Origin: Shewanella sp. 10N.286.48.A6 | Lineage (GTDB): Bacteria; Pseudomonadota; Gammaproteobacteria; Enterobacterales; Shewanellaceae | Direction of reading: 5' to 3' | DNA length: 64,000 bases | Assembly: GCF_002873135.1 (NCBI RefSeq) | Contig: NZ_MCVI01000003.1 | Coordinates: 62,001 to 126,000 of the forward strand | Part shown: positions 27,358 to 37,752 of the stretch, piece by piece | Layout of the letters: every line of letters starts with the position of its first letter | Numbering within the stretch: the stretch's first letter is position 1 | The notes under the pieces: generated by a model | What the model was told of the DNA's origin: nothing | What the model saw: only the letters and a program-made list of their open reading frames with translations | Database searches by the model: none | Made by a program: the position numbers and the translations under genes

Positions 27358-27442
27358 GACATCCCTCTTGTCTCTATTACCCAAGCCTTTTATAACTGAT
27401 TTTTATAGGCTCTTTTGTAAGTTAACTTTATGTTACACCACA

Positions 27443-27460
27443 AATGACAGCGTTGTCATT
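27443..27460 (-). promoter_or_regulatory. NagR-type operator upstream of nagK
   Basis: AATGACAGCGTTGTCATT is the perfect hex box read on the opposite strand. A -10-like TATAAA lies at 27475-27480 on the minus strand, so the operator would cover the start site. It is 86 bp before the nagK start. Confidence 0.85.
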
Positions 27461-27644: not shown

Positions 27645-30383
27645 CTATAAAAACAACGAGCGCCCTTTGCGTTTTCCTGATGCGGAAATTGCTCTTATCT
27701 CAATATTACCTGATACCTTTACCGGAGCTTGGTATTCAAGCCATGATGCTGTTTCAGCAGCGTTATTGTCACTCTCTTCACTGAGTTGACGATACTCAAT
27801 CTTAAGCCCTGGAAAGGCAATATTGGCATAAAGCAGTCCAGCTTCAATTTTTGCCCCAACGGTTGGTACCCGATATTCAATGTTAGCCACATCTAACTTA
27901 GCCAGCTCTTTATGGCCTAAGGTATTAGCGATGTCATTCCATTGCTGTTGCTGCTGCTTACGCATATCAGCAGTAAAGTAACCTGAGTTTTGATGATAAA
28001 CCGCGCCTTGATACTGATATGGCACTTCCCACTTTGCTTTATGCCAAGCTTTTTCAGCTAGCATTAGCAGCCGTGGAAACATCATATATTCAGCGACTTC
28101 ATCACTGCGAATAGTTTCACTCCAGATTTGACCTTGAATACCACTAAAGCCTTTACCTTGTTGTAATGGCGCTGAGGTCACCTTACCTTGCTCATCTTTT
28201 TTAACGCTATCGTCGGCGGTAAAGGGGTTATTTTCGATATCATTCCATTGTTCCGCATTCGCAGGTAAGTTATCTGGCATAAAACTAAACAATTTTTGGC
28301 TGTTTAGCGCTCGGGTCGCCCAGTAGTAACCATGCTCTTTAGGATCAGCCTCATAGGGGAAATCAAAGTACAACACTTCAGGGTTTGAAAGCACAGTATC
28401 CCAACCTAAATTGGCTTGGCTGTGGGCTCTTTGATAACCATGGTGTGAAATCACATCCCAAATGTTGGTTTGTGATTTAGCCGGCATATTGTCTGCATTA
28501 GTATGGCTCATACCATCGCTCCAACCTGCAGGTTCAATACCTTTAGCGCTGACCATATTGGCGACGCGCTCAATAAAATAAGCACCTAAATCATCGATCG
28601 ATTTAACCCCTTTGTCATTGTTAGCAACAAAGTCTACGCATTGTGGTGATTGCTTCCACGCCCCTGCCGTTTCATCAGCGCCAATGTGGTAGCGTTTTAG
28701 CGGATGGCCTGCTTGTTGGTGCAATTTAGCAATTTCATCAATGACTTTATCGACAAAGTGATAGGTCGACTCCAAGCACACATTTAGGGTGTTATCGTTA
28801 TAATACTGCACCGATGAATACACTGTGGTGTCGTTAGCATCTGTCAGTAAGTACTCATTAGCAGCATTATTTTCGCCACTTGCCATAAACTTACGGTAGC
28901 GGGCATCCATAGATTTTATCGCAGCACGTGAGTGACCAGGCATATCCATTGACGGGATAACCTCTACTTGGCGGGCGCTGGCATACTGCAAAATGTCTAT
29001 ATAATCGGCTTTGCTATAAAAACCATTTACACTGGCATCAGCAAAAGGGCCACTGCCCAGCTGGGGAATTAAGCAGGTGCTTTCGGTTAAATCATGGCAA
29101 CGCTTACTACCAATATCAGTAAGCTCAGGTAAGCCATCAATTTCTAAGCGCCATGCTTCATCATCGGCCATATGTAGGTGTAATTTATTGAGCTTATAAG
29201 CTGCCATTTGATCGATTAAATCAAATATCAGTTGTTTACTGTGAAAGTTACGCGCGACATCAATGTGCATACCACGAAAATCATAACGCGGTGCATCATC
29301 AACAACCATAGTATTTATACTGAGTTCTCGAGTATCGATTAACGCTGCAAGTGACGAAAGACCATATGAAAAACCACTGTCGGTGGCGGCGGTAATGGTA
29401 ATGCCGTCAATGGCCACCTTGAGCTGATAAGCGCCATCAATCCCTTGCTCGTCTGCTGTAACCTTGCTGTTTTTAACAAACGCTAACGACAAGCCTGTAT
29501 CTGATTGCTTAACCCCAAGTCTCGCTAATCTCGACAAAGCTGCAGCAACTGCTGCTGAGTCAACTTGCTGGTAATTAACCTCAATACCTTGAGACAAATC
29601 TACCGGTGTATTACTTGATGTAACGCTAGCACTGAGCGGCGTTGGAATAATGCGATTAATGGCAGCCTCGCGATTAACTACAAGGGCATTATTGGCTTCA
29701 AATAACACCTCAGCACGGCTCCACGCTAAGTTATCGGTTGCGGTTCTGCGATATTGCCTTTTTTCATCCGTAAAGGCTTCAACATAGGGTCTAACTTCCA
29801 TGCCGGTTTCTGCGTCAATACTTAATTGAGTGCTAGCTATCACGACAGGCTCTAAACCATCCACCACAATGTAATAGTTTGGCATTGGGTCAGTTTCAGA
29901 TAATTGCCATAACTCGCCTCTAAAACCAATGCGTTGGGTTACGCCAGCGCTAAAGCCAGTGAATTGTTCGGTGGGGGCAATTTTATGTAAATCACCTTGT
30001 ACTCGAGTGATGCTAAACTGCGGATTTAACACCGCTTGTACTGGGCGCATTTGACTGAAATAAATTGCCCAGTCGGCATGGGGAATATTAACTGAACTGG
30101 TTAAATCAATTTCAGCGATAAAACATTGCTCATCAGGCTGTGTTGCTGAGCAACTTTCTTCAGGGACATTGGTCACCATGCGATAAGTGACTTTTAGATC
30201 TGCGGCAAATTGTTTTAGGCTTGCTTGAGTCCAAGCGCTATCAGCGGCTTGATTAGCCTTATGTTGCAGATCTGAACCATTAGCTGATTGAGCATCATCA
30301 GACGTAGAAGGAGCTGAAGAATACTGGCAACCCACTACGCCTATTGATAGTAATAATGCTGATGCAAGGATGGTCTTTTTCAT
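27645..30383 (-). CDS. hex: Lipoprotein beta-N-acetylhexosaminidase / chitobiase (GH20)
   Basis: This 912-residue enzyme splits terminal GlcNAc from chito-oligosaccharides. It begins with a lipoprotein signal peptide (lipobox VVGC, Cys19). A chitobiase N-terminal domain follows (about 40-210), then a GH20b domain, the GH20 barrel (about 365-780) and a C-terminal chitobiase-type domain. The catalytic Asp570-Glu571 pair is in YHIGADETAG. GAGGA precedes the ATG by 5-6 bp. The protein probably sits in the outer membrane, feeding GlcNAc to NagP. Its promoter region is unusual: a NagR operator lies 374 bp upstream, and a strong terminator lies between it and the start codon. Confidence 0.95.
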   Translation of the reverse strand: MKKTILASALLLSIGVVGCQYSSAPSTSDDAQSANGSDLQHKANQAADSAWTQASLKQFAADLKVTYRMVTNVPEESCSATQPDEQCFIAEIDLTSSVNIPHADWAIYFSQMRPVQAVLNPQFSITRVQGDLHKIAPTEQFTGFSAGVTQRIGFRGELWQLSETDPMPNYYIVVDGLEPVVIASTQLSIDAETGMEVRPYVEAFTDEKRQYRRTATDNLAWSRAEVLFEANNALVVNREAAINRIIPTPLSASVTSSNTPVDLSQGIEVNYQQVDSAAVAAALSRLARLGVKQSDTGLSLAFVKNSKVTADEQGIDGAYQLKVAIDGITITAATDSGFSYGLSSLAALIDTRELSINTMVVDDAPRYDFRGMHIDVARNFHSKQLIFDLIDQMAAYKLNKLHLHMADDEAWRLEIDGLPELTDIGSKRCHDLTESTCLIPQLGSGPFADASVNGFYSKADYIDILQYASARQVEVIPSMDMPGHSRAAIKSMDARYRKFMASGENNAANEYLLTDANDTTVYSSVQYYNDNTLNVCLESTYHFVDKVIDEIAKLHQQAGHPLKRYHIGADETAGAWKQSPQCVDFVANNDKGVKSIDDLGAYFIERVANMVSAKGIEPAGWSDGMSHTNADNMPAKSQTNIWDVISHHGYQRAHSQANLGWDTVLSNPEVLYFDFPYEADPKEHGYYWATRALNSQKLFSFMPDNLPANAEQWNDIENNPFTADDSVKKDEQGKVTSAPLQQGKGFSGIQGQIWSETIRSDEVAEYMMFPRLLMLAEKAWHKAKWEVPYQYQGAVYHQNSGYFTADMRKQQQQQWNDIANTLGHKELAKLDVANIEYRVPTVGAKIEAGLLYANIAFPGLKIEYRQLSEESDNNAAETASWLEYQAPVKVSGNIEIRAISASGKRKGRSLFL

Positions 30384-30587: not shown

Positions 30588-30622
30588 AAAAAAATAGCTG
30601 GGAACAAAAATTGTACCCAGCT
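30588..30622 (-). terminator. Intrinsic terminator between the NagR operator and hex
   Basis: AGCTGGGTACA pairs with TGTTCCCAGCT (one T-T mismatch, seven uninterrupted pairs at the base), loop ATTTT, then A and seven T on the minus strand. It lies about 205 bp before the hex start, not after a gene. The 30384-31058 interval holds no protein-coding gene. Confidence 0.75.
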
Positions 30623-30756
30623 TATACTCGTTTCTGGGGAGAGACTAAAAGTATAAATTAATGCTATTTCGCCCGACCGAAATAGCATTAAGGCATGGAT
30701 AATAGGGACCTATAAATTATCCATGTCGACCTTAAAACAACGATTCACACACAAGC

Positions 30757-30774
30757 AATGACAACGCTGTCATT
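30757..30774 (-). promoter_or_regulatory. NagR-type operator in the hex upstream region
   Basis: AATGACAACGCTGTCATT, a box with perfect outer arms. A -10-like TATATT lies 13 bp upstream (30788-30793), the same geometry as at the TonB receptor gene. It is 374 bp from the hex start. Confidence 0.85.
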
Positions 30775-30999
30775 CAATAATCTACCGAATATAGAACGAG
30801 ATTTCTACATTTTTTTTATGTTTTGACACAGGTTTGCAACAATAGGCATTAAAAACAAATAATAACAGTGGCTTAATTGCTTAAATTAAGCTTAATTGGC
30901 TTAGTAATAACCAAGAATATTGGCATCTAGTGGTAAAGAAAGGATTGAATGAAGTAAAAAGCTTTAAGCAAAAGAATCTTATGCTAAATATGCTACTAA

Positions 31000-31040
31000 T
31001 AAAAAAGGCATTATTTCAATATATGAAATAATGCCTTAAT
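31000..31040 (-). terminator. Terminator of the SapC-family gene
   Basis: Perfect 14-bp stem AAGGCATTATTTCA / TGAAATAATGCCTT with a minus-strand T-run, 22 bp after the stop. Confidence 0.9.
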
Positions 31041-36361: not shown

Positions 36362-36379
36362 AATGACAACGCTGTCATG
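36362..36379 (-). promoter_or_regulatory. NagR-type operator upstream of the TonB-dependent receptor gene
   Basis: AATGACAACGCTGTCATG, one outer base away from the perfect box. It lies 12 bp downstream of a candidate -10 and 53 bp before the receptor start, so bound repressor would block initiation. It is also in the intergenic region shared with nagR. Confidence 0.85.
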
Positions 36380-36741: not shown

Positions 36742-37752
36742 ATGAAAGTAACCATAAATGATGTTGCCAAACATGCTGGCGTATCAATTAAAACCGTTTC
36801 ACGGGTCACCAATAACGAATCGTCAGTCAGACAAACCACGGTCGACAAGGTCAATGCAGCAATTAATGAGCTAAATTATCAACCTAACTTAGCAGCAAGA
36901 AATCTAGCAAGCACAAAATCCTATGTTATTGGTTTTATTTATGATAACCCCAATGCTTATTATATTATTGATATGCAGAACGGTATTCTTTCTGCCTGCC
37001 AAGATAAAGGCTACGAGTTGTTGATCCACCCTTGTAATGCTACCTCTGACACAATTTGTGATGAACTAACCAAAATGGTCAAACACTCTCGGCTATCGGG
37101 TTTAGTGCTCACCCCGCCAATGTCAGAAGACCCGAAGATACTTGCAGCACTTGATGAAATAGATGCTAATTATGTAAGAATTATTGCAGGCGAAAGCACT
37201 GATGCAGAAAATGGGCTTACTGTACTTGTCAATGATAAACATGGCGCTTTAGAAATCACCCAACACTTAATTGATATGGGTCATAGTGATATTGGATTTT
37301 TAAGTGGCGATCAGCAGCATGAATCAACCAAAGAACGTTTAGCTGGTTTTAAAGATGCCCTTGAGCACAATAATCTTAACGTGAATAACACCTGGGTTTT
37401 AGATGGTAAATACTCTTTCGAATCTGGGGTAGAAGGTGCCAATAAATTGATTAACTTAACCAAACGGCCTACGGCAATCGTCGCCTGTAACGATGAAATA
37501 GCTGCAGGGGCTTTATTTGCTGCGCGTTTAGCTGGGCTTGATATACCAAAAGATTTATCCATTGTAGGATTTGAGGATAGCCCCTTCTCCCGACAGACGT
37601 GGCCCAAATTAACCACAGTGCATCAACCAAACGTGAAAATTGCCAAAGTCGCCACTGAACTGTTAATCGCCAATAGCAAAGAAACGACTGAGAAAAAATC
37701 GATGGTATTTACGCCTGAGCCGGTTATTCGGGACTCATCAAGCAAACCATGA
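36742..37752 (+). CDS. nagR: LacI-family transcriptional regulator of GlcNAc use (NagR)
   Basis: This 336-residue regulator has the LacI DNA-binding start TINDVAKHAGVSIKTVSRVTN with hinge region YQPNLAARNLA. A periplasmic-binding-protein-like effector domain covers about 60-330. It lies at the end of the chitin/GlcNAc locus, divergent from the TonB receptor. Four copies of an 18-bp palindrome of LacI type occur only in this locus, so it is very likely their ligand. In Shewanella NagR replaces the unrelated NagC of enterobacteria. The effector is expected to be a GlcNAc-pathway sugar phosphate (known for the family by inference). A shared terminator follows. Confidence 0.92.
   Translation: MKVTINDVAKHAGVSIKTVSRVTNNESSVRQTTVDKVNAAINELNYQPNLAARNLASTKSYVIGFIYDNPNAYYIIDMQNGILSACQDKGYELLIHPCNATSDTICDELTKMVKHSRLSGLVLTPPMSEDPKILAALDEIDANYVRIIAGESTDAENGLTVLVNDKHGALEITQHLIDMGHSDIGFLSGDQQHESTKERLAGFKDALEHNNLNVNNTWVLDGKYSFESGVEGANKLINLTKRPTAIVACNDEIAAGALFAARLAGLDIPKDLSIVGFEDSPFSRQTWPKLTTVHQPNVKIAKVATELLIANSKETTEKKSMVFTPEPVIRDSSSKP

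Follow-up and report, generated by a model that had tools for sequence, protein, structure and literature searches.

The enterobacterial non-coding RNA ChiX (also MicM or RybC) is about 80 nt long, is made from its own gene and silences chiP, and a segment of the RNA pairs with a ribosome site. Attenuators and riboswitches are structured leaders ending in a terminator before a regulated operon. In the leader of Escherichia coli greA, about two thirds of transcripts stop to give the sRNA GraL and about one third read through, and the available portion of that study reports the product to be active both in cis and in trans (PMC6829880). In Shewanella oneidensis MR-1, a 64-bp fragment from the region ahead of mcpNag (SO3510) is bound by purified NagR, GlcNAc abolishes binding as assayed with a nagK fragment, and deletion of nagR raises mcpNag mRNA 16-fold and nagK mRNA 50-fold on lactate, according to the excerpts available of the regulon study (PMC3223726). 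A hexB promoter fusion is 6- to 12-fold higher in nagR mutants, as given in the accessible part of a further study (PMC5424254).

The locus described here lies in a window of 64,000 nt, the whole stretch of Shewanella sp. 10N.286.48.A6 DNA that was analysed. Like ChiX, it specifies a predicted non-coding RNA linked to chitin-sugar genes; unlike ChiX, this RNA is a NagR-controlled leader of the hex operon and has no match in Rfam 15, and the comparison with ChiX drawn in the original prediction stands as an analogy only. It resembles attenuators and riboswitches in being a structured leader closed by a predicted terminator, and differs from them in having no conserved antiterminator pairing and an H2 loop motif (TCGGGC) kept in only 41 of 97 loci. 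With GraL it shares an intrinsic terminator in the 5' leader, and a short sRNA product and partial read-through would be further points in common; sequence and conservation both place an intrinsic terminator inside the leader of the downstream gene. GraL as described in the accessible text is 37–59 nt long and tied to GreA (PMC6829880), whereas the Shewanella RNA has a predicted length of approximately 186 nt, should fold into five stem-loops and is controlled by a sugar repressor. Regulator type, operator and operon (mcpNag-hex) are common to the published NagR regulon, an account that in the sections available treats protein-coding operons, without this RNA or terminator, and used Rfam patterns for its RNA scan (PMC3223726). 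The RNA family was not described in titles or abstracts of the open-licence literature searched, and the table of 16 cis RNAs in the available part of an sRNA screen of S. piezotolerans WP3 contains neither a hex nor an mcp gene (PMC5471319). As a leader-derived sRNA the element is of a kind already known; the family itself is new to Rfam 15.

Architecture of the leader in the window

The leader-encoded RNA (30588..30773, minus strand; approximately 186 nt predicted) was delimited by covariance model R1 and by conservation ending at the U-tract, its 5' end being placed from a -10-like box and probably correct to within a few nt. An exact TGACARCGYTGTCA palindrome at 30759..30772, a NagR (LacI-type) operator, overlaps the predicted transcription start, and the -10-like box TAGATT lies at 30779..30784 on the minus strand; both elements had been named in the original prediction and both are present. 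Across 95 distinct upstream sequences the consensus of the box is TAa.tT, with the final T alone near-invariant. A TGTAGA block after an A-tract (30804..30809, minus strand) is a majority consensus and a poor match to a -35 element.

Folding of the window RNA predicted five stem-loops, all on the minus strand. In the first, P0 (30736..30771), one half of the operator pairs with CGUUGUU around the loop region UGCUUGUGU. H1 (30694..30725) has a 10-bp stem and the loop AUAGGUCC in the window species, the common loop being GGAnGAGGUCUCC. The variable H2 (30658..30691; loop CGGUCGGGCG) has a stem of 11 bp in the minimum free energy (MFE) fold, 13 bp in the centroid and 14 bp in the terminator scan. 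H3 (30623..30655) displays a C/U-rich segment, UCUCUCCCC at 30636..30644, within its loop. The last element is an intrinsic terminator hairpin with covarying arms (30588..30622; 7+4 bp) and a tail of seven T's. Three hairpins had been proposed originally; their stems are real, including H1 at 10 bp and H2 at 11–14 bp, and the count was wrong, P0 and H3 bringing the predicted number to five. The C-rich linker that had been taken as unpaired is instead the loop of the 7-bp hairpin at 30623..30655, and the mean unpaired probability of the C-rich segment is just 0.60. The description of the last hairpin, with seven base pairs and a seven-T tail 205 nt before the hex start, holds, the U-tract ending at 30588 and the hex ATG lying at 30383.

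The window RNA folds with a z-score of -4.6, and none of 200 shuffled sequences folded equally well. For the 89 distinct homologues (25 shuffles each) the median z-score was -3.6, with 81 below -2 and the weakest at -0.6. Of the distinct sequences, 88 have a proximal operator; the MFE structure contained P0 in 80 of these, and a hairpin enclosed the C-rich segment in 82. In a generic consensus scan the RNA's own promoter was absent from the three promoter-like sites listed (shuffles gave 3.3), and the last hairpin was not listed, the terminator-like calls being H2 and a hairpin near sapC. Both the promoter and the terminator call rest, therefore, on conservation, and the last hairpin is a predicted terminator by virtue of its U-tract and its conservation. 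A 14-bp hairpin followed by a T-run lies after the sapC-like gene at 31005..31037 and is likely the terminator separating that gene from the RNA promoter. The sapC-like gene near the RNA occurs in both orientations across genomes.

Distribution and conservation of the RNA family

A blastn search with the region gave matches in 95 of the 152 genomes of the family Shewanellaceae. Covariance model R1 was built from 20 sequences, the window and 19 of the 31 loci then available, with window copies, near-duplicates and the odd loci L017, L019 and L020 excluded. R1 matched 97 of the 152 family genomes, searched with stricter filters, and 23 of 394 genomes in an order-wide sample; all matches were in Shewanella, and each of the 97 genomes carried a single copy. 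The 97 rows comprise 89 distinct sequences, 88 of which have a proximal operator. No copy was found on a plasmid, and none away from the hex operon, to which all 97 are linked. A search of Rfam 15 yielded four tRNAs in the window and no family matching the RNA, the best score in the region being 23.1 bits (E 0.089) against a cut-off of 80. The sRNA family VrrA was considered and set aside as a chance match (20.3 bits against a cut-off of 50). The original observation is confirmed and reaches further than first claimed: the element belongs to a family of NagR-controlled leader RNAs that extends across Shewanella and lies outside Rfam 15.

The RNA is carried by 97 of the 109 family genomes having a hex-type gene. 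The RNA is missing from 55 family genomes. A hex-type gene is missing as well from 43 of them, and 40 of the 43 also give no nagK match, the exceptions being G032, G130 and G136. Since the RNA is mostly missing together with hex, its absence does not separate a role in cis from one in trans.

Covariation was assessed in the 97-row alignment (89 distinct sequences), which was fitted to the R1 structure, so that pair counts lean towards that structure, although by margins that are wide nonetheless. Paired cells made up 90.4% of the total compared with 77.7% in shuffles, and 248 cells were changed on both sides, compared with 83.8 +/- 8.4 in shuffles and 8–59 in slid controls; 16 of the 20 pairs were changed on both sides. 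H1 was paired in 97.0% of cells, with covariation, H2 in 85.2% (three pairs, many gaps) and H3 in 74.6%. The terminator was paired in 98.2% of cells, its arms covarying while the C-rich loop of H3 is constant; the 5' arm occurs as GGCTGGG, GGCCGAG, GGCTAGG, GGCCAGG or GGCTAAG, each with a matching partner. The RNA structure is under selection, and the conservation of stems across Shewanella that had been proposed as a check is borne out by the 97 of 152 genomes and by the excess of double changes.

Sequence conservation was found in the loops also. Of the 97 loci, 92 have UCUCUCCCC, 90 have GAGGTC within the region of H1, whose loop in the window is an exception, and 81 have TGCTTGT, a motif of the P0 hairpin. 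Every one of the 89 distinct sequences ends in a T-rich stretch, with six or more T's within 8 nt. Median pairwise identity over 1347 random pairs was 0.64 within the RNA and 0.45 across the 60 nt that follow it, compared with 0.44 for shuffled sequence, indicating that conservation ends at the U-tract; in the 42 pairs with RNA identity above 90%, the downstream median was 0.74. Operator, R1 matches and conservation up to the U-tract together support the proposal of a NagR-controlled structured RNA of about 190 nt ending in a terminator.

The operon behind the RNA and its control by NagR

In the window the first gene past the terminator is hex, encoding a GH20 chitobiase/beta-N-acetylhexosaminidase (27645..30383, minus strand; Pfam PF00728, PF03173, PF03174 and PF02838). 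A hex gene lies downstream of the RNA on the same strand at all 97 loci, as fragments in one (G045). At many loci a gene without a Pfam match (about 285–361 aa) and an MCP gene are inserted before hex. At the locus taken as that of MR-1 (L259, genome G086) the first gene starts at +93 and encodes 324 aa without a Pfam match; by eye its C-terminus looks like the end of an MCP, as in a fusion. The RNA of this genome spans G086:C1:3663698-3663879 on the minus strand. This locus has one operator at the RNA start and a copy with one mismatch 147 bp upstream. The gene pair between RNA and hex looks eroded by eye at L181, L197, L221, L239 and L259. That the RNA is constant while the first gene varies (hex, another gene plus MCP, or remnants) was counted in favour of a leader-encoded sRNA. 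Only 25–56 nt separate the terminator from the start of the following gene at five loci (L252, L246, L219, L203 and L216), and read-through of the terminator is the simplest account of operon transcription there.

The window contains four NagR sites with two or fewer mismatches compared with 0.63 expected, among them one before nagK (27445..27458) and one before a TonB-dependent receptor gene (36364..36377). A LacI-family regulator (36742..37752, plus strand; Pfam LacI) is the candidate NagR, a name given by analogy with the described regulon (PMC3223726). An exact operator lies 168–232 nt ahead of the RNA 3' end at 96 of 97 loci, the exception being L252 (G079), where the operator is at -385 from the RNA end and other sequence stands in place of the RNA's 5' half. 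At this locus H3 and the terminator alone are kept, 25 nt before hex. A second operator with two or fewer mismatches occurs 143–156 bp upstream of the proximal one at 46 of 96 loci and is absent from the window; such paired operators suggest looping repression of the LacI type. Between RNA and hex there is no NagR operator with two or fewer mismatches at any of the 97 loci.

This arrangement is also what would be seen if the terminator gated the hex operon in cis, a signal or RNA-binding factor reading the H1 and H3 loops and the short RNA being waste. Such conditional attenuation by some factor is the main rival explanation, possible in our view though rather unlikely. It accounts for the same-strand position before hex at every locus with no operator between, and for next genes 25–56 nt past the U-tract, which leave scant room for a second promoter. 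The RNA's conserved bases are lost in G045, where hex has decayed, suggesting that use of the RNA depends on hex, and this too is as attenuation would have it. Hex is however retained as an open frame in G143 and G116, whose RNAs are degenerate (60.8 and 31.4 bits). In G097 (L263), a natural case of leader loss, hex immediately follows the TonB-dependent receptor gene and is preceded by neither RNA nor operator; from these three genomes the RNA is dispensable for hex retention. Attenuation is further opposed by the want of any antiterminator that is conserved: in 18 of 89 sequences the C-rich region accounts for over half of the pairing of the terminator 5' arm, and changes in that arm are not matched by changes in the region. 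The arm pairs with some upstream partner at a mean probability of 0.60, the C-rich region being the only fixed partner tried. Pairing of the C-rich loop with this arm to form an antiterminator was rejected, as no conserved, covarying pairing was found among the 89 sequences.

Published expression data bear on the same question. The mcpNag-hex order suggests that SO3510 (mcpNag) is the first gene past the terminator; in the available excerpts its mRNA rises 16-fold on lactate when nagR is deleted (PMC3223726), so that expression past the terminator seems to need the loss of NagR and not GlcNAc. GlcNAc thus seems not to be the gate, and the conditional terminator offered as an alternative in the original prediction is so far unsupported. 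The smaller rise of mcpNag compared with nagK (16-fold versus 50-fold in those excerpts; PMC3223726) would fit a constitutive terminator of fixed strength that lowers the output of the hex operon, the structure serving folding or stability, with neither switching nor a role in trans. Strong stems and a strong terminator agree with this reading, which we nevertheless hold to be improbable, as loop sequences that serve no evident purpose in termination persist (92 of 97 loci for UCUCUCCCC, 90 for the H1 GAGGTC) while stems vary.

Candidate functions of the short RNA

The explanation we prefer, with moderate confidence, is a leader-encoded sRNA with a leaky terminator, acting in trans by base pairing. 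NagR would leave its operator and transcription would start at about 30773; many transcripts would stop at 30588 and accumulate as a folded RNA of about 186 nt, and a fixed fraction would read through into hex mRNA, in many relatives with two further genes as well as hex. The short RNA would base-pair in trans through its conserved loops, chiefly UCUCUCCCC in H3, and induction by chitin sugars would thereby also emit a regulatory RNA. A fixed leaky terminator is preferred over a switch because neither an antiterminator with the C-rich loop nor a leader peptide is conserved, and because read-through in MR-1 seems not to require GlcNAc. Loops rich in C and U would be retained by an sRNA that works through base pairing, and a role in trans is likely, although the mean unpaired probability of 0.60 for the segment is modest. 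Should the short RNA accumulate, it would add an RNA product to the NagR regulon in 97 of 109 hex-bearing family genomes, presumably MR-1 included. Reporter fusions or knockdowns upstream of mcpNag or hex may unknowingly have included or cut the RNA and its terminator.

A more elaborate form of the leader-encoded sRNA would be a self-gating, GlcNAc-induced and genus-wide trans RNA arm of the NagR (chitin) regulon, in which the H3 seed GUCUCUCC is held by pairing with the H1 loop GGAnGAGGUCUCC, which itself copies a ribosome site, until a target or factor binds and sets the seed free. This we regard as speculative and unlikely. Pairing between the H1 and H3 loops is worth approximately -7.5 kcal/mol in most loci read and is lost in L001, L003 and L009; elsewhere it is invariant, and covariation for that reason cannot test it.

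Pairing of the C-rich segment with Shine-Dalgarno sequences, as first suggested, is possible in terms of base pairing by UCUCUCCCC, but the searches gave no target. GGGGAGAG shortly before ATG gave 18 hits in four genomes compared with 17 for the reversed control, and by eye no gene was common to two genomes; one hit was the RNA gene read antisense and several lay off gene starts. When start regions of the nag cluster were paired with the H3 loop, no gene present in many genomes stood out, mean energies for genes found in at least 20 genomes being -6.0 to -10.0 kcal/mol and the lowest value, -11.0 kcal/mol, belonging to nagX in five genomes. Several start codons in this screen were misplaced, that of nagK above all, and most omp and TonB-dependent receptor starts were lost. 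The sRNA reading is weakened further by the confinement of all 97 copies to this operon, by the loss of conserved RNA bases in G045 and by the retention of hex in G143, G116 and G097 with a degenerate or missing RNA.

The foot of H1 carries UAAGG and AUG, which could be read as the ribosome binding site of a regulatory leader peptide, and 92 of 97 loci indeed have AAGG(T/C) within the 5' portion of the RNA, with ATG at the expected place in 77 and GTG in 2. At 11 loci the codon is instead ATA, ATT or AGA (7 more were unread or misread by the pattern), its change in L207 and L208 preserves the H1 stem, and by eye the in-frame readings share neither length nor sequence. Neither start codon nor short ORF being conserved, leader-peptide attenuation was disfavoured and appears extremely unlikely.

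The H1 loop (nGAGGUCU) might alternatively mimic a target, copying the ribosome site of nagK (nGAGGUCUGUCAUG in some genomes) and so titrating a factor or sRNA directed at nagK. The string (A/U)GAGGUCU is common to the H1 loop and nagK in a number of genomes, yet in both the window and MR-1 nagK reads AAGAGGGAUGUCAUG, the H1 loop of the window deviates too and GAGG is a plain Shine-Dalgarno core, making such mimicry very unlikely. At the nagK start (about 27365..27380 of the window, minus strand), some other Shewanella genomes read (A/U)GAGGUCUGUCAUG, matching the nGAGGUCU of the H1 loop.
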